This document shows, piece after piece, positions 7,574 through 61,063 of a stretch of 64,000 nucleotides of DNA. A program made the position numbers and the translations under genes. This DNA comes from Rhodocyclaceae bacterium. GTDB taxonomy: Bacteria > Pseudomonadota > Gammaproteobacteria > Burkholderiales > Rhodocyclaceae. Where the stretch lies: positions 17,025 through 81,024 of the forward strand of contig VIKE01000022.1 of assembly GCA_008080565.1 (NCBI GenBank), given 5' to 3'. Under the pieces are notes generated by a model. The model saw only the letters and a list, made by a program, of their open reading frames with translations, did not search any database and was not told the DNA's origin. Each line of letters starts with the position of its first letter. Within the stretch, counting starts at the first letter, position 1.

Positions 7574-7615
7574 AAAAGCTACGGTTGATCGAGCGCCATG
7601 CTGATTTTTGCAATC

Positions 7616-7652
7616 CCACGGTCAACCGGAATTTTTGCCCAAAAATGAAATG
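7616..7652 (-). repeat. GGTTGACCGTGG element, copy 1
   Basis: The minus strand shows CATTTTTGGGC followed by CCGGTTGACCGTGG with the standard spacing. The element's CATTTC end is also the right arm of a perfect 10-bp hairpin (GAAATGCCGG / CCGGCATTTC, 7647-7670), so on the minus strand it reads as hairpin, T-rich stretch, element. No minus-strand gene lies upstream; this may be the leftover 3' end of a lost gene. Confidence 0.85.
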
Positions 7653-7670: not shown

Positions 7671-7988
7671 GTGGTTTGGGTTGTGTTCCCAATTGTCATT
7701 TGGCGGAGTTCGGCCATGAGCGGACCGGTGAAGTATTTCCTATTAGCAGTCGTTTGCTGCTGAGATTGCTGATAGACGTCAGTCACATCAATGTCATTAG
7801 GGTAGTCGTATCATTCCGCATCTGGCCGGAGTTCCATATGACGCCAAATGCAAATCAAATGGAAACCTTTATCAGCGGCGCTAGAACGCATGGGCAATCA
7901 AACATGGCTTTCGAAGTGGCTAGATGTGCCGACACATTTTCTAAGCCCAGTCGGTTTTTATACAAATTTCCACTTGCCCTGCATCTCG
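7671..7988. other. Gene-poor stretch before the lipoprotein gene
   Basis: No convincing gene is seen here. The plus-strand ORFs overlapping it (7676 and the long 5' part of the 7848 ORF) lack family resemblance and look like read-through. The base composition falls relative to the acx operon, suggesting that sequence of foreign or decayed origin begins here. Confidence 0.4.
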
Positions 7989-9116
7989 ATGATTCTCGTG
8001 ACCAAAAGCGTTTTCATTTTTCTAGCAGCACTACTGCTGACAGCCTGTAGTCGGACTGATTCAGTATCGACAATAGTTGCTTTGGAACCAAAAGATGCTA
8101 TCCCTCTTGCTTGGAGGAACAGCAATACCTTAATTGTTGATTACCACGGTTCGATTTATGCCTACGACATCTCCGCTCGCAAGCTCAATCAACGCCTAGT
8201 TGATAACTATGATACGACCTCTCCCCACTGGAATTGTTTCTCACCTAATGGTGGCAGATTTGCGATAGCGCTCCCAGTCCGGTCCACAAACACTGCTAAC
8301 TCAGCACGGCCGATGGCAACGGAGCACAAAACTCGGTATATCCCCGACTGGACCCGCTCGGAAAGTTATGTTGAGGATACGAATTCGATCCAGTGGTGGA
8401 ACACCAATCCGTTTGATTGCAGTCCAATTGACCATGAAGAGCGTAAGCGGAAGATTGCCTCGCTTGAAGGCGAAGGGAGATTTGTTCGATCTCCTAGTCC
8501 GTTGTTACTTGCAAGAGAAGGTGATGCATTCGTAACGTTGAACAGAAGCGAGAGCGGCACTACTGGTCGTATCCTCCACTTATTTAGCTATGGCGCGAAG
8601 GTAACGTCGAGAGAGATTTCGCTATCCAGCGCAACAAATTCCCCGCCCAGTGATGGTTCGGACATACTTTCGTTTCGCGACTCCGACGGCAGTTACGTAA
8701 TTTTTGAGTCAAATAGCGACTTCGATGCCAATCGTGGTATCTGGCCACTTACTGCATGGCGTCTTTTCCCCGGCTTGACGACCGTAAGTGCCTTTGTTTT
8801 GCCTAGTGGTCCATGGATTCAGCCCCATGGATTTTTCAAGAGCCTTAGCTGCTTTTCATGCGGATGTATGTGCTACGCACATTTTGAGCTCACCGGGGCA
8901 TACGGGCACATCTACGCACACGTTCATGGACAATCTGTTGAGGATGCTGCAGCAGGTATTTATAAACTCATACGGGATAAGGATGGGGCAAATTGGGTGC
9001 TAGTCGTTGCTGCTAACTTTAGCGGGAAAGCTCTCGCGTCACCCGAAGGGTGCCGCGTTGCATATTCCGATGCCGATCGACGACTTCAGCTTGTCGAAAT
9101 CAAGAATTGCAAATGA
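7989..9116 (+). CDS. Putative lipoprotein of unknown function
   Basis: The track ORF starts at 7848, but the ATG at 7989 begins a proper lipoprotein signal (MILVTKSVFIFLAALLLTAC, then SRTD) with the lipobox LLTAC, giving 375 aa. The body has repeated short strands and Trp-rich stretches reminiscent of a beta-propeller, but no family can be named. Codons are clearly more AT-rich than in the neighbours. Together with the gene-poor surroundings this suggests horizontal acquisition. It is flanked by terminators and stands alone. Confidence 0.65.
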   Translation: MILVTKSVFIFLAALLLTACSRTDSVSTIVALEPKDAIPLAWRNSNTLIVDYHGSIYAYDISARKLNQRLVDNYDTTSPHWNCFSPNGGRFAIALPVRSTNTANSARPMATEHKTRYIPDWTRSESYVEDTNSIQWWNTNPFDCSPIDHEERKRKIASLEGEGRFVRSPSPLLLAREGDAFVTLNRSESGTTGRILHLFSYGAKVTSREISLSSATNSPPSDGSDILSFRDSDGSYVIFESNSDFDANRGIWPLTAWRLFPGLTTVSAFVLPSGPWIQPHGFFKSLSCFSCGCMCYAHFELTGAYGHIYAHVHGQSVEDAAAGIYKLIRDKDGANWVLVVAANFSGKALASPEGCRVAYSDADRRLQLVEIKNCK

Positions 9117-9304: not shown

Positions 9305-9336
9305 GTTGGGCAGCTATCCCGTTGATTGTCCCAATC

Positions 9337-9372
9337 CCACGGTCAACCGGAAATTTTGCCCAAAAATGAAAT
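9337..9372 (-). repeat. GGTTGACCGTGG element, copy 2
   Basis: On the minus strand it reads CATTTCATTTTTGGGC then TTTCCGGTTGACCGTGG. It follows the hairpin (9370-9389) that ends the Cys-rich protein gene, so the hairpin's T-tract is supplied by the element. Confidence 0.87.
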
Positions 9373-11863: not shown

Positions 11864-11900
11864 CATTTCAATTTTGGCCTTTATTTCCGGTTGACCGTGG
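11864..11900 (+). repeat. GGTTGACCGTGG element, copy 3
   Basis: CATTTCAATTTTGGCC and TTTCCGGTTGACCGTGG are present almost perfectly, in sense orientation, six nucleotides after the stop of the PilB-like gene. Confidence 0.9.
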
Positions 11901-11928
11901 AAGAGCGGTTTCGCGGCCGGTTGAACCC

Positions 11929-12360: not shown

Positions 12361-13369
12361 GAGCGCTTTCGAACAATAAGGTGAGTGCAGTGTTGTGAAA
12401 CAGGCAGTTGTGGCCGGCCAGCGGCGCGATTTGCCCGGTGCCGTAGGCGCCGAGCAGCGGCGTGTCGGGGAAGGTGTCGCGGAAGGCGACGAGGTCGCGG
12501 TCGTCGTTGCCGTAGAACAGCGGGCCGCGGCCGATGCAGGAAAACATCAGGGCGAAATTAGGCCGTTTTTTCGGGTTGACCGTGGCAGTGAGCGCTTCAC
12601 GCATTTCCTGCTCGGCGGCGAGCGGCTGGCGGATGGCCCAGGTGATCGACTCGCCTTCGTTGAGGTTTTCGGCCAGGGTCAGCGAACCATCGGCGTTGGC
12701 CGAGAGGATGGCGATACCCGGCGCATCAGGCTGGCGTTGCGCGGCGATCAGGTGCAGGGGCGGGCGCTCGCGCAAATCGGCGGGCAGGGCGCGGTGCAGG
12801 CTGTCGACGGCGCTGTGGCCACCAATTCGGCGTAACTCGTAGCCGGCGCATTGCTCGACGGGCAGCGGCTCGCCAAGCAGGCGCAGGCCTGACGAGCGGA
12901 CCAGCCGGGCGTTTACGCCGGGCAGACTGAACTCGGCGCAGCCGTTGTCCGCCGCCCGGCCATGCGACCAGGCAGCCGCGTCGGTATCGAGCAGGCCGAC
13001 CCGTGCCGGGCCGTCCTGCCATTCGAAGGGCAGCCGGCCATGGCCGCTGAAGGAGAGCAGTGGCGCTTCAACCAGAGCCTTGCCAGCCGGCGTCGAATAA
13101 ACGAGGGCCGCCGCCGTCGGTTGATCGAGACGCCAGCCGTGCTCGGTAAACAGCCCGCTGGCCGTGCCGCCGCTGACCGTCAGGCAGCCCGCGGCGCGTG
13201 CAGCGGCGAGTACGGCGGGCTGCGGATTTCGATTGAAATCGTGGGTCAGAAAAAGGATGACGTTATCGGCGCGCACCAGCCCGGCAGCGGCCAGTGCCGC
13301 CTCGACGGCGGCCTGGGCCAGCTCCGCTTCCGGTCGCTGGCCGGCAACGAGGGCGGTGCCGACTTTCAT
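12353..13369 (-). CDS. FIST-domain protein
   Basis: The 338-aa protein has an N-terminal FIST region (NVILFLTHDFN, GCLTVSGGTASGLF) and a C-terminal FIST_C-like part (FSCIGRGPLFYG, PLLGAYGTGQIAP). FIST proteins are thought to sense small ligands, possibly amino acids. I start it at 13369, where ATGA overlaps the nth stop. The segment TATVNPKKRPNFA near residue 270 is encoded by an antisense copy of the dispersed element, placed between the linker and FSCIGRGP. It is co-transcribed with nth and DUF1841. Confidence 0.8.
   Translation of the reverse strand: MKVGTALVAGQRPEAELAQAAVEAALAAAGLVRADNVILFLTHDFNRNPQPAVLAAARAAGCLTVSGGTASGLFTEHGWRLDQPTAAALVYSTPAGKALVEAPLLSFSGHGRLPFEWQDGPARVGLLDTDAAAWSHGRAADNGCAEFSLPGVNARLVRSSGLRLLGEPLPVEQCAGYELRRIGGHSAVDSLHRALPADLRERPPLHLIAAQRQPDAPGIAILSANADGSLTLAENLNEGESITWAIRQPLAAEQEMREALTATVNPKKRPNFALMFSCIGRGPLFYGNDDRDLVAFRDTFPDTPLLGAYGTGQIAPLAGHNCLFHNTALTLLFESAHV
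12552..12585 (+). repeat. GGTTGACCGTGG element, copy 4 (inside FIST gene)
   Basis: GAAATTAGGCCG and TTTTTTCGGGTTGACCGTGG keep the spacing of the intergenic copies. The gene reads it antisense and in frame as ATVNPKKRPNF without a stop. Confidence 0.75.
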
Positions 13370-15493: not shown

Positions 15494-16555
15494 GCCGACG
15501 CCCGGGACATTTCGTTTTTGGCCAATTTTTCCGGTTGACCGTAGCAACGGGCGAGCGCTTTCGCGGGCCCGCAACTGGCCGCAGCCGCCGTCGACATCCT
15601 GCCCGGCCGAGTTGCGTACCGTCGTCCGGATGCCTTTTGCGTGCAGATAGCGGGTTAGCTCGGTGATGCGCTCGACCGCTGGCCGGCGGTAGGCAAGGGC
15701 GGCCGTGGCGTTGTAGGGGATCAGGTTCATGATCGCGTACTTGCCGGTGAGCAGGCGGACGATGCCGTCCATTTCCTCGATGCTGTCGTTGATGCCGTCG
15801 ATCAGCGTCCATTGGTACTGGATCGGATAGCTCGTCGTCCGGGCATAATGCTCGGCCAGCTCGACCAGCTCCGCCGGGTCGATGCGCGACGCCTTGGGCA
15901 GCAGTTCGGCGCGCAGTTCGGCGCGGGTCGAATGCAGTGAAATGGCCAGCGCCGGTTTGACCGTTTCCTGCGGCAGCCGCTCGAAAACGCGCAAATCGCC
16001 AACCGTCGAGAACACCAGATTCTTGTGGCCGATGCCGCCGGCCGTGCCAAGCAGATCAATCGCTTCGAGCACGTTGTCGATGTTGTGCGACGGCTCGCCC
16101 ATGCCCATGAAAACGACGCGCGTTACCTTGCGCCGGGCCCGGCCGAGGATGACCTGGGCGACCATTTCGCCGCTGCTCACCTGACGTAGCAGGCCGTCAC
16201 GACCGGTCATGCAGAAGGTGCAGCCGACGGCGCAGCCGATCTGCGTCGAGATGCACAGGCCGTCGCGCGGCAGCAGCACGCTTTCGACGGTCTGGCCGTC
16301 GGCCAGTTCGACGAGCAGGCGCGACGAGCCATCCTCGCCCGGGTGTTCGGAGCGGACGCGGGCCAGCGCTGAGAGTTCATCGTGCAAGCCGGGCAGCGCA
16401 TTGCGCAGGGCCAGCGGCAGAAAGGTTTCCGGTGGGTGGCTGCGCGGCCCGGCATCGAGCGGCTTACCTTGCGCCCAGGCGCGCATGACGCGGTCGACGT
16501 GGCAATCCTTGGCGCCCGTGGCGAACAGGGCTTGGCGGATGGTTTCGATGCGCAT
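15482..16555 (-). CDS. rlmN: RlmN-like radical SAM RNA methyltransferase
   Basis: The 357-aa protein shows the radical-SAM motif CAVGCTFC, the GMGEPSHN segment and the C-terminal SAGQDVDGGCGQLR with the methyl-carrying Cys of RlmN/Cfr enzymes, which methylate C2 of adenosine in 23S rRNA (A2503) and some tRNAs. The N-terminus is short, so it may be a divergent RlmN paralog. The last 20 or so residues (RSTGKIGQKRN and on) are encoded by an antisense copy of the dispersed element. The gene lies 42 nt after rnfE and overlaps the end of the convergent cyclase gene by 12 nt. Confidence 0.82.
   Translation of the reverse strand: MRIETIRQALFATGAKDCHVDRVMRAWAQGKPLDAGPRSHPPETFLPLALRNALPGLHDELSALARVRSEHPGEDGSSRLLVELADGQTVESVLLPRDGLCISTQIGCAVGCTFCMTGRDGLLRQVSSGEMVAQVILGRARRKVTRVVFMGMGEPSHNIDNVLEAIDLLGTAGGIGHKNLVFSTVGDLRVFERLPQETVKPALAISLHSTRAELRAELLPKASRIDPAELVELAEHYARTTSYPIQYQWTLIDGINDSIEEMDGIVRLLTGKYAIMNLIPYNATAALAYRRPAVERITELTRYLHAKGIRTTVRNSAGQDVDGGCGQLRARESARPLLRSTGKIGQKRNVPGVGSAG
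15508..15544 (+). repeat. GGTTGACCGTGG element, copy 5
   Basis: CATTTCGTTTTTGGCC and TTTTTCCGGTTGACCGTAG lie 14 nt after the cyclase stop in sense orientation. On the other strand the same bases encode the C-terminal tail of the RlmN-like protein, so one copy serves two genes. Confidence 0.87.
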
Positions 16556-18962: not shown

Positions 18963-20719
18963 TATTCGGATTTCTCGCTGGCCGGAGTGACCGGCTCGGG
19001 TTCGATCAGGTGGGCGGCGATCCGGCGCGCCTCGATGTCGGCGGCAGCCTTCTGCTGCTCCGCCGTCAGGTTCTCGGTGTTCTTTGGCTGAACGGCCTCG
19101 CGCTGCGCCTTGGCACGGGCCATGGCAGCCTCGATGGTGGCGCGTTTTGCGTCTTTTTCCGGGTTGACCGTGGCAGCCGGTGCATCGGCGGGGGCGGCGA
19201 CTGCCGGTGCAGCGGCCGTATCGGCGGCCGGCGCGGCTCCGCTTTCCGCTGCCGCTGCAGCCGCTTCAGCAGCCTTCTTGGCAGCTTGAGCAGCGGCCGC
19301 CTTGGCCAGTTTTTCAGCCTTGTCGGCCTTTTCTCGTTCTTCGCGCAACTGCTTGAACTCGAAACGGGCCTTGGCCTGGTCGGAGGCATTCTTTTCGCGT
19401 TCGCGCGCCCAGATTTCGCTCTTTGCAAAGCGGAAATACTGGACCAGCGGGATGCGTGACGGGCAGACGTAGGAGCAGCAACCGCATTCGATGCAGTCGA
19501 AAATGTTGTATTCCTGCGTCTTGCCGAAATTCTTGGCGCGCGCGAACCAGTACATTTCGAACGGTTGCAGTTCGTGTGGACAGGCCCGGGCGCAGGCACC
19601 ACAGCGGATGCACGGCATCTCCGGGGCCTTGGGCGGGAACAGGCGGTCGTCGTGGGCGATCAGGCAGTTGGTCGTCTTGACCACCGGGACCTGCGGGTTG
19701 GGTACCAGGAAACCCATCATCGGGCCGCCCATCAGGATGCCGTCAGTGTCCGGATGCGGCTGGGCGAGGGCCAGCAGTTCGTCCATCGGCGTGCCGATCA
19801 GCACTTCGTAATTGCGCGGCGCGTGGACATTGCCGGTAATGGTCAGGATGCGCGAAATCAGGGGTTCGCCGTGGGCGACGGCGCGCCAGGCGCTGTAGGC
19901 GGTGCCGACGTTGAAGACCTGAACGCCCATGTCGGCGGTCGACCGCATCGAGCCCGGTACTTCCTTGCCGGTCAGCACGCGGATCAACTGCTTGGCACCA
20001 CCGGCCGGGTAAAGCGTCGGTACGGCAACGACGGAAAACGGCTCTTTTTGGGCGTCGACCGCAGCGCGCATGGCGGCGATGGCTTCCGGCTTGTTGTCCT
20101 CAATGCCGATCAGCACCTTTTTCGGTTGCAGCAGGTCACGGAAAACGGCGATGCCGCGCACGACTTGATCGGCGCGCTCACGCATCAGCAGGTCGTCGCA
20201 GGTGATGAAAGGTTCGCACTCGGCGCCGTTGATGATCAGCTCATCCATCGGCACGCCCTTGCTCGGCGTCAGCTTGCCGTGAGCCGGGAAGCCGGCGCCG
20301 CCGAGGCCGACGATGCCGCATTGCTGCAGGTGATGAAAGACATCGGCCGGCGCTACGGCCTTGTGATCGATCGGCGTGCGGGTGATCCACTCGTCCTTGC
20401 CATCAGGTTCAATGACGACGCACAGCGAGTCGAGACCGGAGGGGTGAGGACGAACATGCATCGCCACTTCGCGTACGGTGCCCGAGGTCGGGGCGTGCAC
20501 AGCGGCGGAAATCCAGCCGTCAGCCTCGCCGATCATCTGGCCCTTGAGGACATGATCGCCAGCGGCGACGATCGGCCGCGGCGTGCCACCAATGCTCTGG
20601 TGGAGCGGTACGACCAGGCGCGAAGGCATCGGCGCCTGGGCAATCGGCAGATGGTTCGATTGCAGCTTGTTGCTCGGCGGCTTGACGCCACCCTTGAACT
20701 TGAACAGATTCATCAGCAT
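18962..20719 (-). CDS. rnfC: Rnf complex subunit C
   Basis: The 585-aa peripheral subunit contains the NADH/FMN-binding Rossmann-like part and two [4Fe-4S] motifs, CIRCGACARACP and CIECGCCSYVCPS. A long Lys/Ala-rich C-terminal extension follows, as is common in proteobacterial RnfC. Within this tail AATVNPEKDAKR is encoded by an antisense copy of the dispersed element. The start at 20719 overlaps the rnfB stop (TGATG); an ATG two codons later is also possible. Confidence 0.94.
   Translation of the reverse strand: MLMNLFKFKGGVKPPSNKLQSNHLPIAQAPMPSRLVVPLHQSIGGTPRPIVAAGDHVLKGQMIGEADGWISAAVHAPTSGTVREVAMHVRPHPSGLDSLCVVIEPDGKDEWITRTPIDHKAVAPADVFHHLQQCGIVGLGGAGFPAHGKLTPSKGVPMDELIINGAECEPFITCDDLLMRERADQVVRGIAVFRDLLQPKKVLIGIEDNKPEAIAAMRAAVDAQKEPFSVVAVPTLYPAGGAKQLIRVLTGKEVPGSMRSTADMGVQVFNVGTAYSAWRAVAHGEPLISRILTITGNVHAPRNYEVLIGTPMDELLALAQPHPDTDGILMGGPMMGFLVPNPQVPVVKTTNCLIAHDDRLFPPKAPEMPCIRCGACARACPHELQPFEMYWFARAKNFGKTQEYNIFDCIECGCCSYVCPSRIPLVQYFRFAKSEIWAREREKNASDQAKARFEFKQLREEREKADKAEKLAKAAAAQAAKKAAEAAAAAAESGAAPAADTAAAPAVAAPADAPAATVNPEKDAKRATIEAAMARAKAQREAVQPKNTENLTAEQQKAAADIEARRIAAHLIEPEPVTPASEKSE
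19142..19173 (+). repeat. GGTTGACCGTGG element, copy 6 (inside rnfC)
   Basis: GCGTTTTGCGTCTTTTTCC and GGGTTGACCGTGG preserve the right half well; the left half is degenerate. It is antisense and in frame in the variable C-terminal tail of RnfC. Confidence 0.7.
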
Positions 20720-23207: not shown

Positions 23208-23244
23208 ATGCGATTTTTACCCTGTTTTTTCCTGTTGACCGTGG
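23208..23244 (+). repeat. GGTTGACCGTGG element, copy 7 (tolC signal peptide)
   Basis: GATTTTTACCCTG and TTTTTTCCTGTTGACCGTGG match the consensus spacing with a few changes, sense and in frame. The copy covers the start codon and the hydrophobic region of the signal peptide. Confidence 0.75.
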
Positions 23245-24593
23245 CATTTCCCGCCTGGGCGGGTGGTCTGGACGATCCGTTTGGCACGGATGCCATGGCG
23301 CCGCTCAAGGTGTCGCCTAGCCTGGCTGCCCGGGTTGGCGAAGCGCCCTGTGCCACGGCTTTGCCGGTCACGCCACTGACGGCCCTCGATGCGGTCGATC
23401 TGGCCTTGTGCAACCATCCGCAGACGCGCGAGGTATGGGCTTCGGCGCGGGTGCAGGCGGCGCTGGTCGGCGTCGCCCGGGCCGGCTGGTTGCCGAATCT
23501 CGATGCCAGCGCCAGCGCGACGCGTTTTCAGTATGACGATGGTTCGTATAACCGGCGGGCCGCCGCGCTGACGCTGTCCTGGCTGCTGATCGATTTCGGT
23601 CAGCGTTCGGCCAATGTCGAGAATGCGCAGCAATTACTCAATGCGGCCGCGGCGACGCAGGATGCGACGGTCCAGTCGTTGTTCCTCGCCGCACTGCAGA
23701 CCTACTACACGGCGCAGGCGACGCAGGCGGCGGTGATTTCGGCGAGCGAGGCCGAGCGTTCGGCGCGTGAGAGTTTTCAGGCCGCTGATGCGCGCTACAA
23801 CGTCGGCGTCGCCACGCCGGCTGATCGCCTGCAGGCGCAGACGGCGCTGTCGCAGGCGACGCTCAATCGCATCCGGGCCGAGGGCGAGGCGCGCAACGGG
23901 CTGGGGGCGCTGGCCAATGCGCTCGGTTTCGAGGCGCAGCAAAAAATCGCGTTGGCTGAACTGCCGGCCTTGCCGGCCGATCTGGCTTTCCAGAAGGAAG
24001 TCGATGCCATGATTGCCGAGGCGCAGGCCCGGCGGCCTGATCTCAAGGCGGCCGAGGCGCAGCTCAAGGCGGCCGAGGCGAGCGTTGATCTGGCCCGCGC
24101 CCAGGGCCGGCCGACCGTCTCGCTGGCAGCCGGGCCAAGCTGGCAAAACACCGCCGGCGTCGTCACGCAGGGTGGCAGCATTGGCCTGACGCTCAACGTG
24201 CCGATCTTTGCCGGCTTCGACACGACTTACCGCGTGCGTTCGGCCGCGGCGCAGGCCGACGTGCGCGCCGCGCAGCGCGACCGGATCAAAAACCAGATCG
24301 CCCTCGATGTCTGGAAGTCCTACCAGAGCCTGACGACGGCGACGCAAAGCCTGAAGACCTCGGCTGATCTGGTGGCCAGCGCCGAGCAGTCGGAGCGCGT
24401 CGCGCTTGGCCGTTACAAGGCTGGCGTCGGTACCGTACTTGATTTGCTGTCGGCGCAGAGTGCCTTGGCCAGCGCCCGCCTGCAGCGCATTCAGGCGCAG
24501 CTCGACTGGAATGTTTATCGCGCCACGCTGGCTCAGTCCATGGGCGCGCTCGATTACACGCTGCTGCAACCGGCGGCGGAAGGAAGACCATGA
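23208..24593 (+). CDS. TolC-family outer membrane efflux protein
   Basis: The 461-aa product has a signal peptide (MRFLPCFFLLTVAFPAWAGG) and two OEP repeats with long coiled-coil helices (TLSWLLIDFGQRSANVENAQ and LTLNVPIFAGFDTTYRVRSA). It should form the outer-membrane channel for the MacAB-type pump encoded next; its stop overlaps macA (ATGA). The hydrophobic core of the signal peptide, FFLLTVA, is encoded by a copy of the dispersed element, and the ATG itself lies inside that copy. Confidence 0.9.
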   Translation: MRFLPCFFLLTVAFPAWAGGLDDPFGTDAMAPLKVSPSLAARVGEAPCATALPVTPLTALDAVDLALCNHPQTREVWASARVQAALVGVARAGWLPNLDASASATRFQYDDGSYNRRAAALTLSWLLIDFGQRSANVENAQQLLNAAAATQDATVQSLFLAALQTYYTAQATQAAVISASEAERSARESFQAADARYNVGVATPADRLQAQTALSQATLNRIRAEGEARNGLGALANALGFEAQQKIALAELPALPADLAFQKEVDAMIAEAQARRPDLKAAEAQLKAAEASVDLARAQGRPTVSLAAGPSWQNTAGVVTQGGSIGLTLNVPIFAGFDTTYRVRSAAAQADVRAAQRDRIKNQIALDVWKSYQSLTTATQSLKTSADLVASAEQSERVALGRYKAGVGTVLDLLSAQSALASARLQRIQAQLDWNVYRATLAQSMGALDYTLLQPAAEGRP

Positions 24594-25795
24594 AACAAAT
24601 CGGCAAGATATTGCTTGGCGTCACGGTGATTGCCGGCCTGATCGGCGGCGGCGTCTGGTACAGCAAGCAGCGCGCGGCACAGAACCCGGAAACCCGCTAC
24701 AAGCTGGCGACGGTCGAGAAGGGCGGCGTGACGCAAACGGTGTCGGCCAATGGCACGCTCAACCCGGTGGTGCTGATCAGCGTCGGGACGCAGGTGTCGG
24801 GCACGGTGAAGAAGCTCTACGTCGATTTCAACGACAAGGTGAAGAAGGGCCAGCCGCTGCTTGAACTTGACGATGCGCTGGTCTCGGCCACCGAGCGGCA
24901 GAGCGCGGCGAATGTGGTCAACGCCCAGGCGACGCTGGAACTGGCGCAGGCCAACGAGGCGCGCATGAAGTCGCTGATTGCCCAGGAATACGTCTCGAAA
25001 CAGGAATACGACCAGTCCATCCAGGCCCTCAAATCGGCCCGGGCGCAACTGGCGCTGGCCAAGGCGCAGAACGAGCGCGACCGGGCCAACCTCAATTTCA
25101 CGGTGATCCGCTCGCCGGTCGACGGCGTCGTCATCGACCGCGTCGTCGATCTCGGTCAGACGGTAGCGGCCAGCTTCCAGACGCCGACGCTGATCAAGAT
25201 CGCCCAGGATCTGTCGGAAATGCGCATCGACACGAGCTTTGCCGAGGCCGATATCGGCAACATCCGCGAGGGGCAGAAGGCGCGTTTCACGGTCGATGCC
25301 TTCCCGAGCCGCAGTTTCATGGGCGACGTCCAGCAGATTCGGCTGAACGTCGCCAACCCCGAGCAGGTGCTGTTGCCGGGCATGACGGCCTACGTCAATA
25401 TCGGCGTGCAGAAACGTGAGGGCGCGCTGCTCGTGCCGAATGCCGCGCTGCGCTTCAAACCGGCCGATGGCGGTGAGAAAAAATCCGAAAATGGCCAAAA
25501 ATCGCCGTCGACCGCAGGACCCTCGAGCGTCGGACCGGGCATGGGTGCCGGTTCCGATGGCAGCGCCGCCAAGGCTGGTGCCGGCAAGGGCAAGAAGCGC
25601 GATGGCCAGAGCGGGACGGTTTATGTGCTGACCGGCGAGGAACTCAAACCGGTCAGCGTCCAGCTCGGCATCACCGACAACCGCAACACCGAAATCGTCG
25701 GCGGCGAGTTGAAGGAGGGCGACCGCATCGTTACCGGCGAGAACGGTAGCGGGCAGACCGGCAAGCCGTCCAGCGTCGGCATGCGGATGTTCTGA
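24590..25795 (+). CDS. macA: MacA-like periplasmic adaptor protein
   Basis: This 401-aa membrane-fusion protein has an N-terminal anchor (LLGVTVIAGLIGGGVWYS), a lipoyl/barrel-sandwich part with a coiled-coil hairpin (about residues 95-165) and a beta-barrel domain. It links the ABC permease to the TolC-type channel. A low-complexity Gly/Ser/Ala/Lys insert near residue 300-340 contains what looks like a decayed element copy. It is coupled to tolC (ATGA) and to the ATPase gene (TGATG). Confidence 0.9.
   Translation: MKQIGKILLGVTVIAGLIGGGVWYSKQRAAQNPETRYKLATVEKGGVTQTVSANGTLNPVVLISVGTQVSGTVKKLYVDFNDKVKKGQPLLELDDALVSATERQSAANVVNAQATLELAQANEARMKSLIAQEYVSKQEYDQSIQALKSARAQLALAKAQNERDRANLNFTVIRSPVDGVVIDRVVDLGQTVAASFQTPTLIKIAQDLSEMRIDTSFAEADIGNIREGQKARFTVDAFPSRSFMGDVQQIRLNVANPEQVLLPGMTAYVNIGVQKREGALLVPNAALRFKPADGGEKKSENGQKSPSTAGPSSVGPGMGAGSDGSAAKAGAGKGKKRDGQSGTVYVLTGEELKPVSVQLGITDNRNTEIVGGELKEGDRIVTGENGSGQTGKPSSVGMRMF
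25480..25517 (+). repeat. Possible decayed GGTTGACCGTGG element (macA)
   Basis: CGAAAATGGCCA and CCGTCGACCGCAGG keep exactly the 12-nt spacing between GGCCA and GACCG of the intact copies, in the low-complexity insert of MacA. Only the two anchors match, so this could be chance. Confidence 0.4.
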
Positions 25796-26503: not shown

Positions 26504-26540
26504 CATTTCAATTTTGACCAATTTTTCCAGTCGACCGTGG
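26504..26540 (+). repeat. GGTTGACCGTGG element, copy 8
   Basis: CATTTCAATTTTGACC and TTTTTCCAGTCGACCGTGG lie 7 nt after the ATPase stop, in sense orientation, separating the two halves of the split macB operon. Confidence 0.85.
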
Positions 26541-26575
26541 GAATCACCAAAAAGCCGCAACCGTGAGGTTTCCCC

Positions 26576-35893: not shown

Positions 35894-36275
35894 TGGCAAA
35901 TGCCACGGTCAACCGGAAAAAACGGCCAAAAATGCAATCCGGGATCTGCCATTGAAGGCCAATCAGCCACCCGGTCCGCAAGCCTTCTTCGATGACCGGG
36001 TGATTGCCCACCAGGCCTTCGTTGCCAACCAGCGCAGTTTCGCTCGAAGAGCCGTCTTCAAGGGTATAAATCAGCGAAACGATACCGGAGACGGGAAAGT
36101 GCAAAAAGTTATCATGGTCTCCAGATTCAGAAACCGTCGATCGCAACGGCATCTTCACCAATTTCAGATCGGGTAGCAAGCGCGCGTAATCTTTCCCGGG
36201 AAGGCTTGCGAGAATGCCGTTTTGCCTTGCCTCTGGCGGAAAAGCAGGTTTCTGTCTGTTTTTTCGACATATCAA
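35835..36275 (-). pseudogene. Crp/Fnr-type regulator, truncated at dispersed element
   Basis: The first 95 or so residues are a recognisable cyclic-nucleotide-binding domain of the Crp/Fnr type (NGILASLPGKDYARLLPDL, FPVSGIVSLIYTLEDG, ALVGNEGLVGNHPVIEEG). The sequence then changes to IPDCIFGRFFRLTVAF, encoded by element copy 9, and ends in non-homologous sequence. The rest of the sensor domain and the helix-turn-helix are gone. The element sits at the break, as if insertion or recombination at it caused the truncation. Confidence 0.72.
35903..35937 (-). repeat. GGTTGACCGTGG element, copy 9
   Basis: On the minus strand GCATTTTTGGCC then TTTTTTCCGGTTGACCGTGG. It lies 10 nt after the acyP stop and forms the new 3' part of the truncated Crp/Fnr gene. 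Confidence 0.9.
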
Positions 36276-38065: not shown

Positions 38066-39474
38066 CAAAGCGCTGTGGCCAGGCGGCCAAGGGTGGCCGC
38101 AGCGGCTTCCAGCCCCGGGCTGTCCGGATGGCCGAAATTGAGCCGCAGGTAGTGAGCGAAGGCGCGCTGTGCCGAGAAAATTGGCCCCGGCGCGGTGCTG
38201 ATGCCGAGCGTCAGTGCCTGTTGATGCAGGGTCAGCGCATCGACCGTTGGCGGCAGCTCCAGCCACAGGAAATAGCCGCCTTGCGGCCGCGCCAGCCGGG
38301 TTTTTGGCGGAAAATGGCGGTTGACCGCAGCAACCAGCAGCGCTTCCTGCTCAGCCAGCGTCCGCCGCAGTTGGCGCAGGTGGTGGTCGTAGCCGCCGTG
38401 CTTCAGGTAGTCGGCCAGCGCGATCTGGACTGGCACGGTGGTGGCCAGGCTGGTGGACAGTTTCTGGCGCTGGATTTGCCCGGCAAAACGTCCGGCAGCG
38501 ACCCAGCCGAGGCGATAGCCGGGGGCCAGGCATTTGGCGAAGGACGAAATGTGCATGACCAGCCCGTCGCTGTCTTCAGCCTTGCTGCACAGTGGCGCTT
38601 GCGGCCCGAAATACAGCTCGCTGTAGACGTCGTCCTCAATCAGCGGCACCCGATGGCGGCGCAGCAGGGCGAGCAGTTCCTTCTTGCGCGCGTCGGGCAG
38701 CAGGCTGCCGCTCGGGTTGGCGAAGTTGAGCATGAGCAGGCAGGCCTTGACCGGGTGCTGCTGCAGGATGGCGGCGAGCGCTTCCAGGCTGACCCCGTCG
38801 CGCGGATGGGTGGGAATCTCGACGACACGCAGGCCGAGCCGCTCCGCCGCCTGCAGGCCGGCATAGAAGGTCGGTGATTCGACGGCGATCAGGTCGCCGG
38901 GCCGGGTTACGGCTTGCAGGCAGAGGTTGATCCCTTCCAGCGCGCCTGAGGTGACGACGATTTCATCTGGCGCCACCGGGGCGCCCCGGGCCAGGTAGCG
39001 CAGGGCCAGTTGGCGGCGCAGTTCGGCGTTGCCCGGCGGTAGGTCGCTGATCGTCGCCTGTGGGTCGAGATGGCGCGCCGCGTGGGCCAGGAAGCGGCCG
39101 AGCTTGGCCAGCGGAAACAGGGTGGGGCTGGGGAAGCTGGAGCCAAGCGGGACGACGGCGCGATCCTTGACGCTGTCGAGGATGCGGAAAATGAAATCGC
39201 TGATCTGTAATTCACTGGCCCCGGCCGGTGGCTGGCTCATGTCCGGCTCGGCCAGTTGCAGGGCCGGACGTGCCCGAACGAAATAGCCGGAACGTGGGCG
39301 GGCTTCGATCAGCCCCCGGCTTTCCAACTGGTAATAGGCCTGGGTAACCGTGATCGGGCTGACCCCATGCGCCCGGCAGGCGTCGCGGATCGACGGCAGG
39401 CGCTCGCCGGCGCGCAGCACGCCTTGGGTGATCAGGTTTGTAGTGTGCTCGGCCAGTTGCTGATAACGACTCAT
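38062..39474 (-). CDS. MocR-type (GntR-HTH / aminotransferase) regulator
   Basis: The 470-aa protein has an N-terminal GntR helix-turn-helix (GERLPSIRDACRAHGVSPIT) joined to an aminotransferase fold with the PLP lysine in SSFAKCLAPGYRLGW. These regulators use PLP chemistry to sense amines or vitamin B6. The segment AAVNRHFPPKTR near residue 390 coincides with a degenerate antisense copy of the dispersed element. It lies upstream of ccoG on the same strand. Confidence 0.9.
   Translation of the reverse strand: MSRYQQLAEHTTNLITQGVLRAGERLPSIRDACRAHGVSPITVTQAYYQLESRGLIEARPRSGYFVRARPALQLAEPDMSQPPAGASELQISDFIFRILDSVKDRAVVPLGSSFPSPTLFPLAKLGRFLAHAARHLDPQATISDLPPGNAELRRQLALRYLARGAPVAPDEIVVTSGALEGINLCLQAVTRPGDLIAVESPTFYAGLQAAERLGLRVVEIPTHPRDGVSLEALAAILQQHPVKACLLMLNFANPSGSLLPDARKKELLALLRRHRVPLIEDDVYSELYFGPQAPLCSKAEDSDGLVMHISSFAKCLAPGYRLGWVAAGRFAGQIQRQKLSTSLATTVPVQIALADYLKHGGYDHHLRQLRRTLAEQEALLVAAVNRHFPPKTRLARPQGGYFLWLELPPTVDALTLHQQALTLGISTAPGPIFSAQRAFAHYLRLNFGHPDSPGLEAAAATLGRLATALC
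38300..38330 (+). repeat. Possible decayed GGTTGACCGTGG element (MocR gene)
   Basis: GTTTTTGGC and CGGTTGACCG are separated by the same 9 nt as in the consensus, and the gene reads AVNRxxxPKT, like the antisense translation of intact copies. The middle is diverged. Confidence 0.5.
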
Positions 39475-44752: not shown

Positions 44753-44842
44753 GAAGGTGGCTCCCGAAAAATGGTTCGCGATGAAGCATACCATCGTGAT
44801 ATTTTTTCATAGCAGGCAAAGCCAGGTTTGGCCAGCAGGATG

Positions 44843-44878
44843 CCACGGTCAACCGGAAAAAGCGGCCAAAATTGAAAT
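44843..44878 (-). repeat. GGTTGACCGTGG element, copy 10
   Basis: On the minus strand ATTTCAATTTTGGCC then CTTTTTCCGGTTGACCGTGG, 15 nt after the stop of the MaoC-like gene and in its sense orientation. Confidence 0.9.
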
Positions 44879-45371: not shown

Positions 45372-46340
45372 TTACGGATTCCGGCACTGCGCCACCTGCG
45401 TGTCGCCGGCCTTGCCGCAGGGTGTCAGCGTGCCGGGCATCGGGTGCGGCGTGCCGTGCTTGTCCATGTGGGCGGCCAGGGTGTCCCATTCGAGTACGCC
45501 GGTTTTGTCGAGCTTGAGGCGGAGCAGCCAGCCGACTTTGGCTTCCGGGGCGTCGAAGCCGTCGAAGACGAAATTGCCGAGGCTGTAGATGATCGGTTTG
45601 CCCTGATAAACGTCGGCGCCTTGCGTGACGTGCGGGTGGCTGCCGACGACCATGCTGGCGCCTTCGTCGATCATGCGCCGGGCGAAGCTTTGCAGGCGCG
45701 GGCTGGCTGCCGGCTCGTATTCCCAGCCCCAGTGCATGAAGGGAATGATCAGGTCGGCGCCGGCGGCCTTGGCGGCGCGGATGTCGGAGATCACGTGATC
45801 GTCCTCGCTCCATGCCGTGCCGGGCGTGTCGGCACCGGCTTCGAAGGCGCGCGGGGCGAATTCGTTGTAGCCGAGGATGGCGATTTTGAGGCCATGGCGT
45901 TCGATCCATAGCGGCTGGTGGGCTTCGGCGAGGTTCTGGCCGGCGCCGAAATGGGCGATGCCGGCGTGGTCGAGGCGCTGCATGGTTTCGAGCAGGGCCT
46001 GGTGGCCGTAGTCGCCGACGTGGTTGTTGGCCAGCGTGACGGCGTCGAAGCGGCCTTGCAGGATGCGCAGGGTGCGCGGGTGGGCGCGGAAGGTGTAGGG
46101 CTTGTCGGCGAGGCGCCTGCCGCTTCTGGCGACGGAGGTTTCGAGGTTGGCGATGCGGTAGTCGGCGGCCTTGAGCGTTTTGGCAAAGGGCGCGAGCGGG
46201 TCGCCGCCTTTGGCGATGAGCCGGCCGGGGCCGTCGTCGAGCATGACGTCGCCAGCGAAAATGAGCGTCATGGGCTCGGCTTGGGCATTAAGGGCGGCCA
46301 GAAATACCAATGCTACGGTCAACCGGAAAAAACGGCTCAT
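45372..46340 (-). CDS. CapA-family metallophosphatase-like protein
   Basis: The 322-aa protein has a signal peptide and the PGA_cap / CapA pattern (IFAGDVMLDDGPG, NLETSVARSG, ANNHVGDYG, IPFMHWGWEYE, GSHPHVTQGADVY), with metal-binding His/Asp/Asn. Relatives act in poly-gamma-glutamate synthesis or remain uncharacterised. The signal peptide core MSRFFRLTVALVF is encoded by element copy 11, which also supplies the ATGA overlap with the upstream gene's stop. Confidence 0.87.
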   Translation of the reverse strand: MSRFFRLTVALVFLAALNAQAEPMTLIFAGDVMLDDGPGRLIAKGGDPLAPFAKTLKAADYRIANLETSVARSGRRLADKPYTFRAHPRTLRILQGRFDAVTLANNHVGDYGHQALLETMQRLDHAGIAHFGAGQNLAEAHQPLWIERHGLKIAILGYNEFAPRAFEAGADTPGTAWSEDDHVISDIRAAKAAGADLIIPFMHWGWEYEPAASPRLQSFARRMIDEGASMVVGSHPHVTQGADVYQGKPIIYSLGNFVFDGFDAPEAKVGWLLRLKLDKTGVLEWDTLAAHMDKHGTPHPMPGTLTPCGKAGDTQVAQCRNP

Positions 46341-46349
46341 TTTGCAATG
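46313..46349 (-). repeat. GGTTGACCGTGG element, copy 11 (capA start)
   Basis: On the minus strand GCATTGCAAAATGAGCC then TTTTTTCCGGTTGACCGTAG. The left block contains the stop of the upstream gene and the ATG of capA (AATGA). The right block encodes FFRLTVA of the signal peptide. Confidence 0.85.
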
Positions 46350-46756: not shown

Positions 46757-47423
46757 GGTTCGCTGGTTTGAGCACGATGTCGACCGGAATCGGCTGGCCG
46801 TTTTTGGTCGCCGGAGTCGGTTTGGCGCTGGCAAAAAGCAGTTTGCCGCCGGCCTCGATCCGGGCGCTGACGGTGGCGTTGGCCTTCTTGCCCATCAGGT
46901 CGCGGTCGACGGTAGCGCTGAAGGGAATCGGCACCTGGGCGCCATTTAGTTCATAGCGTTGATCGGCCAGCGTGCGCTGGCCGGACTGGATGCGGATCTT
47001 GAGGATGGCATTCGGCGGCAGGGCAATGCGGGTGAGATAGCTGACCGTGCCGGCGATGTCGATGAAGCTGCTGGCCGCCGCCGGCTGCGTTGCGGCCTGG
47101 GGCATGACCGGCGCCACGCTGCCGCGCGTACAGCGGCGCAGGTTGTTCTTGCCATCCTCGAAAATCGCGTCGTCGCCCTTGGTGGCCAGGCGGATGTCGC
47201 CGCTGCGATAGAGGGCGCCGGAGGCGGCTGGCACTTGCGGCAAAACGACGGCCTGGTCGGCGAAGTGCAGTGTCGCCTGCGGTCGACCGGAAATATCGGC
47301 TGAAAATGAAATGTCGATGCGGCTTCCGTTGTCGCAGGTGTAGGCGAGGCGTTCGTCGCTGGCGCTGGCGCTGAGCGGGAGGAGCAGTACAAGCGGCAGC
47401 GCCAGCAGGGGGCAGAGGTTCAT
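46740..47423 (-). CDS. MliC-YbaY fusion protein, exported
   Basis: The 227-aa product has a signal peptide ([20 protein letters not shown]) and an MliC-like domain ([20 protein letters not shown] ... NNLRRCTRG; about residues 25-100), the fold that inhibits C-type lysozyme. A YbaY-type domain follows ([20 protein letters not shown] ... VDIVLKP). The [10 protein letters not shown] segment is encoded by a diverged element copy. The start overlaps the bpt stop (ATGA). Confidence 0.78.
47279..47312 (-). repeat. GGTTGACCGTGG element, copy 12 (MliC-YbaY gene)
   Basis: On the minus strand CATTTCATTTTCAGCC then ATATTTCCGGTCGACCGC. It is sense and in frame within the MliC-like domain, more diverged than intergenic copies. 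Confidence 0.65.
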
Positions 47424-56375: not shown

Positions 56376-58268
56376 ATGGCGACGTACAAGGAGTTTCATC
56401 AGTATTCCATCGAAAAACCGAACGAGTTCTGGACCGAGCAGGCCCAACTCGTGGATTGGAAGGAGCCGTTCACCCAGGTGTGCGACTATTCCCGTCCGCC
56501 GTTTGCCAAATGGTTCGTCGGTGGCAAGACCAATCTGTGCCACAACGCGGTTGACCGTCACGCGGCCAAGCGTCCGAACGACCGGGCGCTGATCTTCATT
56601 TCGACCGAAACCGATGAAGAAACGGTCTACAGCTTTGCCGAACTGCAGCGCGAAATCGAGCGCATGGCGGCGATATACCAGAGTCTCGGTGTCAAGAAGG
56701 GCGACCGCGTCCTGATCTACATGCCGATGATCGCCCAGGCAACCTTTGCCATCCTGGCCGCAACGCGCATTGGCGCCATCCACTCGGTGGTCTTCGGCGG
56801 CTTTGCCTCCGGTTCGCTGGCCACCCGCATCGACGACGCCAAGCCGGTGCTGATCGTTTCGTCCGACGCCGGCATGCGTGGCGGCAAGGCGGTTCCGTAC
56901 AAGCACCTGCTCGACGAAGCCATCGAGCTGGCCGAACACAAGCCGGCCAAGGTGCTGATGGTCGATCGTGGTCTGGACAAGGCTTTCAACAAGGTTGCCG
57001 GTCGCGATGTCGATTACGCTACCGAACGCGCCAAGTTCATGGATGCCAAGGTGCCGTGCGAATGGCTGGAGTCTTCCGAGCCGTCCTACATCCTCTACAC
57101 CTCCGGCACGACCGGCAAGCCGAAGGGCGTCCAGCGCGACACCGGCGGTTATGCCGTGGCGCTGGCTTCGTCGATGAAGCACATCTACTGCGGCGGCGAA
57201 GGCGAAACCTTCTTCTCCACCTCCGACATTGGCTGGGTGGTCGGTCACTCCTACATCATCTATGGCCCGCTGATCGCCGGCATGGCCACCGTGATGTACG
57301 AAGGCACGCCGCTGCGTCCGGATGCCGGCATCTGGTGGAAGATCGTCGAGAAGTACAAGGTCACCGTGATGTTCTCGGCGCCGACCGCGGCTCGCGTGCT
57401 GAAGAAGCAGGATCCGGCCTTCATGCACAAGTACGACCTGTCGTCGCTCAAGCACATCTTCATGGCCGGCGAGCCGCTCGACCAGCCGACCCACGAGTGG
57501 TTCATGACCGAACTGCAAAAGCCGGTCATCGACAACTACTGGCAGACCGAAACGGGCTGGCCGATGCTGGCCGCGCTGCCGGGCGTTGAGCAGACCCCGA
57601 TCAAGTACGGTTCGCCGTCCTTCCCGGTCTATGGCTACAACCTGCAGATTTTCCGCGAAGATGGCTCGGTCTGCGGTGCCAACGAGAAGGGCATCGCCGC
57701 GGTCATTCCGCCGCTGCCGCCAGGCTGTCTGTCCACCGTCTGGGGGCAGGACGACCGTTTTGTCAGCACCTACTTCACCCTGTTCAAGGAGCCGCTGGTT
57801 TATTCCTCATACGACTGGGCGATCAAGGATGAAGACGGTTACTTCACCATCCTTGGCCGGACTGACGACGTGATCAACGTTGCCGGTCACCGTCTGGGCA
57901 CCCGTGAGATCGAAGAAGCCATCCAGAACCACCCGGCGATCGCCGAAGTGGCCGTGGTCGGTGTCGAGGACAAGCTCAAGGGCCAGGTGCCGATGGCGTT
58001 CGCTGTCGTTAAGGATGCCTCCAAGCTTTCATCGCCGGAACTGATCAAGGCGCTGGAGAAGGAAGTCTTCGGTACGGTCGACAGCATTCTCGGCGCCATT
58101 GGCCGTCCGGCCCGTGTGCATTTCGTGACCGGTCTGCCCAAGACCCGTTCCGGCAAGATGCTGCGCCGTTCGCTGCAGGCGCTGGCCGAAGGCCGTGATC
58201 CGGGCGATCTGACGACCATCGACGATCCGTCGACGCTGGAGCAGATCAAGAACGCGCTGGCCAGCTAA
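56376..58268 (+). CDS. prpE: Propionyl-CoA synthetase
   Basis: The 630-aa AMP-forming ligase has the P-loop YTSGTTGKPKGVQRDTGGYA, the motif NYWQTETGWP and the C-terminal LPKTRSGKMLRR with the catalytic, acetylatable Lys. Length and motifs fit PrpE rather than acetyl-CoA synthetase. With AcuI it would feed propionyl-CoA metabolism. A strong terminator follows. Confidence 0.92.
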   Translation: MATYKEFHQYSIEKPNEFWTEQAQLVDWKEPFTQVCDYSRPPFAKWFVGGKTNLCHNAVDRHAAKRPNDRALIFISTETDEETVYSFAELQREIERMAAIYQSLGVKKGDRVLIYMPMIAQATFAILAATRIGAIHSVVFGGFASGSLATRIDDAKPVLIVSSDAGMRGGKAVPYKHLLDEAIELAEHKPAKVLMVDRGLDKAFNKVAGRDVDYATERAKFMDAKVPCEWLESSEPSYILYTSGTTGKPKGVQRDTGGYAVALASSMKHIYCGGEGETFFSTSDIGWVVGHSYIIYGPLIAGMATVMYEGTPLRPDAGIWWKIVEKYKVTVMFSAPTAARVLKKQDPAFMHKYDLSSLKHIFMAGEPLDQPTHEWFMTELQKPVIDNYWQTETGWPMLAALPGVEQTPIKYGSPSFPVYGYNLQIFREDGSVCGANEKGIAAVIPPLPPGCLSTVWGQDDRFVSTYFTLFKEPLVYSSYDWAIKDEDGYFTILGRTDDVINVAGHRLGTREIEEAIQNHPAIAEVAVVGVEDKLKGQVPMAFAVVKDASKLSSPELIKALEKEVFGTVDSILGAIGRPARVHFVTGLPKTRSGKMLRRSLQALAEGRDPGDLTTIDDPSTLEQIKNALAS

Positions 58269-58287: not shown

Positions 58288-58319
58288 AAGCCCGCCGATG
58301 CGAATCGGCGGGCTTTTTT
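58288..58319 (+). terminator. Terminator after prpE
   Basis: AAGCCCGCCGAT and ATCGGCGGGCTT form a perfect 12-bp stem with loop GCGA, followed by a T-run. Confidence 0.93.
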
Positions 58320-58327
58320 ACGTGCGC

Positions 58328-58364
58328 CATTTCAATTTTGGCCATTTTTTCCGGTTGACCGTGG
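58328..58364 (+). repeat. GGTTGACCGTGG element, copy 13 (reference copy)
   Basis: CATTTCAATTTTGGCC and TTTTTTCCGGTTGACCGTGG form the most regular copy, 9 nt after the prpE terminator and in sense orientation. Confidence 0.92.
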
Positions 58365-58463
58365 AAGTCTGCGCAATGACGGCGTTTGCTTCGGCGTCAC
58401 AATCCGTCCGAGGGTCGGGTGGTAGAATGCCCGCCAACTGAAGCTTTCTGTGGTTTTTGAAAA

Positions 58464-59966: not shown

Positions 59967-61063
59967 GCGAATCCCCGTGCTTGCTGGTCGAGCCGGGGAG
60001 AGTGGTGCTGTCCGGTTGCTGGACGCTAGCCGAAATGCTGCCTCAAATGCCGGCCTTGCAGGCCGATCTGGCAGCTTGTTCAAGCGGTATCGAACACTGG
60101 GATTTGTCGCCGGTAACGCGGCTGGATAGTGCTGCAGCCGTCCTGTTGTGGCGTACCTGGGGGGCGACGTGGCCGCCTGGACTGATCGCTGGGAAACTCC
60201 ACCGGCAGGTGCTTCAGCGGGTGGCCGAATTGCCTCTGGAAATTCCGGCACTGGCCAGACCCCGAGCCCGGTTCCCCGAACTCGTCGGTGCCTTGGTGCT
60301 CAAGGCTGTCGTCAACCTGCGCGGCATGATCGCCATGTTCGGCCAGTTGCTGCTCGATACGGCCTATCTCTTCCGCCATCCGCAGGATGTGCCTTGGAAA
60401 GAAATTACCGCCAATGTCTACAAGTCGGGGGCGCAGGCGCTGGCTGTCACCGCGCTGGTTGGCTTCCTGATCGGGGTGACGATCAGCTATCTGTCGGCGT
60501 TGCAGCTCAAGAGCTTTGGGGCCGATCTGTTCATCGTCAATATTCTCGGCATCTCGATCATTCGCGAGTTGGGGCCGGTGCTCGTCGCCGTGCTGGTCGC
60601 CGGTCGTTCCGGTTCGGCGATGACGGCGCAAATCGGCGTGATGCGGGTAACCGAGGAAATCGACGTGCTGTCGACGATGGGCATTTCGCGCAGCATCCGT
60701 ATCGTTTTACCCAAAATTTTCGGGTTGACCGTGGCAATGCCTCTGCTTGTGCTGTGGACCTCCGCCGTGGCGCTCTTCGGAGGCATGCTGGCCGCGCTGC
60801 TTCAGCTTGACCTGTCCCTCGTCTATTTTCTCGACAACCTGCCGCGCGCCGTGCCGGTCTCCAATCTCGTCATCGGCCTGAGCAAGGGGGTTGTCTTCGG
60901 CTTCGTCATCGCCGTCGTCGCCTGCCACTTCGGCCTGCACGTCAAACCCAATACCGAGAGCCTGTCGGCCAATACGACCAGTGCCGTGGTGACGGCGATT
61001 ACCACGGTCATTCTTTTCGATGCAGTTTTCGCCGTGTTCACACGGAACATTGGTGTGCCCTAG
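59963..61063 (+). CDS. mlaE: STAS-MlaE lipid transport permease
   Basis: The 366-aa protein has an N-terminal STAS-like region (about 1-100) fused to the MlaE/YrbE permease (ALVGFLIGVTISYLSALQ, GRSGSAMTAQIGVMRVTEEI). It is the membrane channel of an Mla/MCE-type phospholipid transporter. One helix begins PKIFGLTVAMPLL, encoded by element copy 14. It is translated from an ATGA overlap with ppx. Confidence 0.9.
   Translation: MSESPCLLVEPGRVVLSGCWTLAEMLPQMPALQADLAACSSGIEHWDLSPVTRLDSAAAVLLWRTWGATWPPGLIAGKLHRQVLQRVAELPLEIPALARPRARFPELVGALVLKAVVNLRGMIAMFGQLLLDTAYLFRHPQDVPWKEITANVYKSGAQALAVTALVGFLIGVTISYLSALQLKSFGADLFIVNILGISIIRELGPVLVAVLVAGRSGSAMTAQIGVMRVTEEIDVLSTMGISRSIRIVLPKIFGLTVAMPLLVLWTSAVALFGGMLAALLQLDLSLVYFLDNLPRAVPVSNLVIGLSKGVVFGFVIAVVACHFGLHVKPNTESLSANTTSAVVTAITTVILFDAVFAVFTRNIGVP
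60703..60734 (+). repeat. GGTTGACCGTGG element, copy 14 (inside mlaE)
   Basis: CGTTTTACCCAAAATTTTCG and GGTTGACCGTGG match the right half perfectly. The left half is remodelled, and the copy is in frame and sense at the edge of a transmembrane helix. Confidence 0.7.

Follow-up and report, generated by a model that had tools for sequence, protein, structure and literature searches.

An interspersed element of about 38 bp, a near-consensus copy of which lies at 58329-58366 on the plus strand of the 64-kb stretch of DNA analysed here (the window), is, with a probability of roughly three in four, a DNA uptake sequence of Azonexus/Dechloromonas, a function judged from sequence. This reading draws on the abundance of the element, the balance between strands, the independence of its coding copies from reading frame, and its change without gaps, together with conservation above that of the flanks, the avoidance of close spacing, and the existence of dialects with a fixed inner core. 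As would be expected of an uptake sequence, hundreds of near-identical copies are found on both strands, they occur in genes in several frames as well as between genes, and related species carry dialects with a conserved inner core; a counterpoint is the copy density, which falls short of that in Haemophilus or Neisseria. It also seems likely that Azonexus/Dechloromonas represents a third lineage endowed with an uptake sequence, of independent origin, combining a Haemophilus-like design with Neisseria-like dialects, and having undergone several dialect changes within the genus.

Core, AT-rich tracts and abundance of the element

The family consensus reads aTTTCAATTTTGGCC.wwTTTTCCGGTTGACCGTGGnA (the logo gives cA at the end). 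In the logo, built from 87 copies with an exact GTTGACCGTGG in 827 kb of the genome to which the window belongs, the edges are sharp, at -25 and about +13, and similarity breaks off abruptly after about 38 bp, the flanks sharing no homology. Two AT-rich tracts (-9 to -4 and -20 to -15), within which A and T are partly interchangeable, have their centres some 6.5 and 17.5 bp upstream of the core. In the copy located in the prpE-ppx spacer of the window (58329-58366, plus strand, weight matrix score of 63.4), the core GTTGACCGTGG occupies 58354-58364, the AT-rich tract beside it 58345-58350, and the second tract, 11 bp further upstream, 58334-58339. A reading of TTGACC as part of a sigma-70 promoter was rejected, this locus having no promoter-like site; searches of the window against Rfam and for tRNAs returned no match and no tRNA, respectively.

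Among the 10-mers and 12-mers of the sampled genome, those belonging to this element are the most strongly over-represented. The exact 12-mer GGTTGACCGTGG ranks first among over-represented 12-mers in 437 kb (50 occurrences versus 0.09 expected), and the 5.2-Mb assembly contains 391 occurrences of it, 193 in forward and 198 in reverse orientation, while the reversed control is found once. The weight matrix (PWM) yields 142 copies over the 827 kb and no hit once the sequence is shuffled, with a score distribution containing few decayed copies; this corresponds to a density of about one copy per 5.8 kb, and by extrapolation to about 900 copies per genome. Neighbouring copies are separated by less than 500 bp in only 1 of 130 pairs, versus 12 expected (P=8e-5), and share the same orientation in 70 cases and differ in 60, with no strand polarity. 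A strand-polar site of the KOPS or Chi type was also considered and rejected, the sequence scan giving mixed strands; the one-sided lists obtained for G069 and others are a listing artefact.

Copies in genes, between genes and behind stop codons

Placement statistics cover 827 kb of the same genome, sampled as stretches, with genes called by a simple home-made model that missed at least one likely gene (7848-9116), making the fractions approximate: 86 of the 142 copies (about 61%) lie in genes, 51 between genes and 5 at edges, while random placement would yield 82% of coding copies. Copies between genes show a 3.3-fold enrichment (P=4e-10) and lie close to stop codons, convergent spacers being over-represented. 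Because missed genes inflate the null distribution of distances, the argument relies on orientation and not on distance.

Inside genes, 38 copies share the direction of the gene and 48 oppose it (P=0.33), and they are distributed evenly over gene length. All five frames left open by the core are used, and in the sixth, in which GTTGAC would read as a TGA stop, only the GTCGAC form is encountered (4 of 4). Coding copies look like a DNA-level signal fitted into proteins. In the window, such copies are found at 12550-12587 (+), 19138-19175 (+, divergent), 47275-47312 (-) and 60699-60736 (+), along with two weak ones at 25482-25519 (+, variant GTCGACCGCAG) and 38295-38332 (+). Two other copies encode signal peptides, MSRFFRLTVAL for the one at 46311-46348 (-), and MRFLPCFFLLTVAFPAWA for the one at 23209-23246 (+), provided that translation begins with the start codon at 23208; the corresponding in-frame segments are 46311-46348 (MSRFFRLTVALVFLAAL) and 23208-23265 (FFLLTVAFPAWA).

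The sequence-only reading of this DNA had noted that several copies directly follow stop codons in the sense direction of the gene, and had proposed that many of them may act as, or spread with, transcription terminators. Six copies of the window do follow a stop codon in sense, at a distance of about 60 nt at most: 9335-9372 (-), 11865-11902 (+), 26505-26542 (+) and 44841-44878 (-), all intergenic, 15509-15546 (+), which lies behind the stop of a plus-strand gene and overlaps a called minus-strand gene at its end, and 58329-58366 (+). The same reading was also right that the CATTTC block of the element can supply a hairpin arm, as in two minus-strand intergenic copies, 7614-7651 and 9335-9372, it completes a hairpin (AATGCCGG..CCGGCATT) by providing the 3' arm; one further intergenic copy lies at 35901-35938 (-).

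Does this placement amount to a rule? When extended to 827 kb, the enrichment of intergenic copies near stop codons held and the strand bias did not: of the copies no more than 100 nt away from a stop codon, 23 are in sense and 26 in antisense (P=0.78), and 86 of the 142 copies are coding. The association with hairpins is likewise confined to a minority, a stem of at least 7 being present directly upstream of 6 of 56 intergenic copies (about 11%), versus 12 of 600 random intergenic positions (2%, P=0.0025), which makes the link with terminators a secondary one and gives no general rule. These hairpins, the two window copies that provide an arm, and the proximity of the enriched intergenic copies to stop codons are what would favour the element being, or spreading as, an intrinsic terminator in sense behind stop codons. 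This nevertheless seems very improbable, given the balanced orientation near stops, the predominance of coding copies, and the organization of the prpE-ppx locus. There, the prpE-like gene ends with a stop codon at 58268 and is followed by a separate and complete terminator-like hairpin of its own (58288-58315, plus strand, 12 pairs and a T run). The element comes 60 nt past the stop codon, 3' of this hairpin, ahead of a next gene starting at 58464, and the hairpin with its T run is kept in many relatives without the element. Two head-to-head dyads found elsewhere in the genome (C4:10411 and C59:8490) also speak against a terminator function, since in both of them T runs precede the stem and A runs follow it, an order unsuited to intrinsic termination. 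By analogy with known uptake sequences (DUS and USS), enrichment at gene ends would be better explained by the permissive nature of these regions, and the association with terminators would be a side effect of an uptake sequence.

Turnover, dialects and transformation machinery among relatives

At orthologous sites, the element is kept in 241 comparisons, lost in 26 through substitutions accompanied by a small gap at most, and absent with a long gap in 4, all of these at the prpE-ppx spacer; the same sites recur across relatives, and the comparisons are not independent. For example, the window copy at 47275-47312 is degraded by ungapped substitution in G002, and that at 60699-60736 by ungapped in-frame substitution in L051, L058, L063 and L070. 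Intergenic copies show an identity of 0.90 in the core and 0.94 in the AT part, versus 0.75-0.79 in the adjacent 25-bp flanks, a difference suggesting that the element is maintained and speaking against insertion of a mobile repeat. A small repeat of the mobile kind (REP, MITE or the like) that inserts into the genome would fit the hundreds of interspersed copies, and also the prpE-ppx spacer, about 70 bp longer here than in distant relatives. Such a repeat should leave empty sites that differ by a gap of the length of the element, whereas losses occur mostly by substitution, and coding copies differ in frame between species. The abrupt end of similarity without flanking homology and the scarcity of decayed copies also speak against a mobile repeat. 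Moreover, the prpE-ppx spacer of L065 is longer, yet devoid of the element, while that of L096, with a similar 3' sequence, contains it, indicating that element and spacer are separable. Insertion as a mobile repeat can thus be regarded as extremely unlikely.

Within the genus, a degenerate pattern of the element gives tens to more than 600 matches in many members (567 in the genome of the window, 613 in G069 and 558 in G122), and about none in many others; outside the genus, about none were found in 14 genera of the same family or in some 60 further genomes from the order. Genomes without the exact form often carry their own version, as judged from 60-160 kb sampled per relative: GTCGACCGTGAA in G065, GTCGACCGCAGC in G031 and G035, GTYGACCGCAA in G010, GTCGACCGCGACAAT in G028, and GTCGACCGYAAC in G123. 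All dialects have in common GT[TC]GACCG and an AT enrichment at -20 to -15, and their tails are TGGnA, TGAA, CAGC, CAA, CGACAAT or YAAC. No such over-represented word was found in the 80 kb sampled from each of G066, G045, G046, G048 and G049.

Over-represented words of another kind were encountered in two genomes: in G072:C1 (L167-L170), words such as GACACCTAT and CACCGGCAACGACA are strongly over-represented, probably as part of a long protein repeat that has no relation to the element, and in G049 (L234-L237), GTCATTCCCGCG / CTGGATTCCCGC resembles an intergenic repeat found also in L078. In a viral collection, the 17-mer of the element is present in 5 contigs of 2.9 million, two of which (L280 and L281) carry two PWM copies each and may include host DNA or proviruses from this genus.

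The genome of the window encodes comEC (an 821-codon open frame), pilQ and type IV pilins. A small ComEA-type frame was not found in its assembly, which is incomplete, and such a frame, of 108-112 codons, is present in the relatives G053, G054 and G056. As comEC is kept in most members of the genus that are free of the motif, machinery and motif show no obvious covariation in a by-eye comparison. A PilE-like minor pilin with four cysteines, encoded in a fimT-like cluster (G000:C85:25529-25903, L288), is a possible receptor candidate; its homologues, about 40-57% identical, occur in many members of the genus, and with matches in nearly all of them its presence is uninformative as to a receptor role. 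In G002, comEC is split by an island of about 34 kb (G002:C33:109608-143311, L266-L268), whose genes, according to their translations, include integrase-like, SIR2-like, CHAT-like and large restriction-methylase genes. This island contains no copy of the element, versus about 4 expected (P=0.016, for one island only). A split of comEC of similar length was also observed in G045.

The main rival explanation is that the copies are sites for a chromosomal DNA-binding protein (nucleoid-associated, or involved in segregation, repair or global regulation) and have nothing to do with uptake. Such a protein could give many of the same patterns: the long and partly dyadic core (CGGTTGACCG), with its helically phased AT-rich tracts, makes a plausible protein-binding site, the element is conserved at orthologous positions, and the motif shows no obvious covariation with ComEC. 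This explanation is nonetheless considered rather unlikely, as the strand polarity seen for KOPS or Chi is absent, and most copies are coding and evenly spread along genes. In addition, a replacement of the tail throughout the genome between congeners is hard to conceive for hundreds of independently selected sites, whereas it is expected from a spread driven by uptake.

Proposed mechanism and comparison with known uptake sequences

If the element is an uptake sequence, the type IV pilus and competence machinery would read it as a label of self-DNA at the cell surface during natural transformation. A receptor, most plausibly a minor pilin, would bind GT[T/C]GACCG together with a dialect-specific tail (TGGnA here), and the AT-rich tracts, which precede the core by about 0.5 and 1.5 helical turns, may help the duplex to bend or open for entry, a role in bending or opening that has been proposed for the AT-rich tracts of the Haemophilus USS. 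New copies would originate by point substitution or arrive with recombining fragments, and would accumulate because DNA bearing the element is taken up and recombined more often. Such an uptake drive would place copies on both strands, in genes and between them, at about one per 5-6 kb, with fewer constraints on those that fall in spacers behind stop codons. Uptake itself, the receptor and the role of the AT-rich tracts are the parts of this scheme that we infer.

Neisseriaceae and Pasteurellaceae were named in 2025 as the only families known to have self-specific DNA uptake (PMC12616744). The best-known members of these two families are human pathogens. A literature search that took in few subscription papers returned no paper on uptake sequences in Rhodocyclales, Rhodocyclaceae or Dechloromonas, and none was found on competence in the genus. 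If true, uptake specificity in Azonexus/Dechloromonas would be a third case of independent origin, this time in betaproteobacteria from the environment and from wastewater, where a single genus holds many dialects next to sister species free of the motif. The origin of uptake specificity, the turnover of dialects and the coevolution of receptors would then be directly testable in harmless organisms, and the genus, which is studied for its removal of phosphorus and its reduction of (per)chlorate, would be predicted to be naturally transformable.

How does the element compare with known systems? Like intrinsic terminators, some copies adjoin a hairpin and offer T-rich DNA, but the element has no orientation bias, is mostly intragenic, and does not itself form a hairpin with a U run behind it; its copies are not, as a class, placed in sense behind stops. 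The USS of Pasteurellaceae is discontinuous, with a conserved core and two AT-rich tracts on one side, over 30-40 bp (PMC12616744, PMC7811141). The element shares with it (Hin-USS, AAGTGCGGT) the arrangement of a core and two AT tracts on one side. It differs by its core, GTTGACCGTGG, which is unrelated to AAGTGCGGT and is not a USS proper (core AAGTGCGGT or ACAAGCGGT, inner core GCGG), by its betaproteobacterial host and by its lower density. The DUS of Neisseria forms dialects by species or clade, with a common inner core and few differing bases (PMC3630211), and is enriched in permissive regions and absent or rare in acquired DNA (PMC2397512). Dialects with a common inner core, enrichment in permissive regions, and links to gene ends and hairpins are features that the element has in common with the DUS of Neisseriaceae. 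The latter is continuous, of at most about 13 nt, with a CTG core and no AT tracts, whereas the element is discontinuous, has AT tracts and lacks a CTG core, and is not a DUS proper. Finally, inverted pairs of DUS are commonly terminators in Neisseriaceae, while the element forms two dyads only, with their tails in the wrong order.
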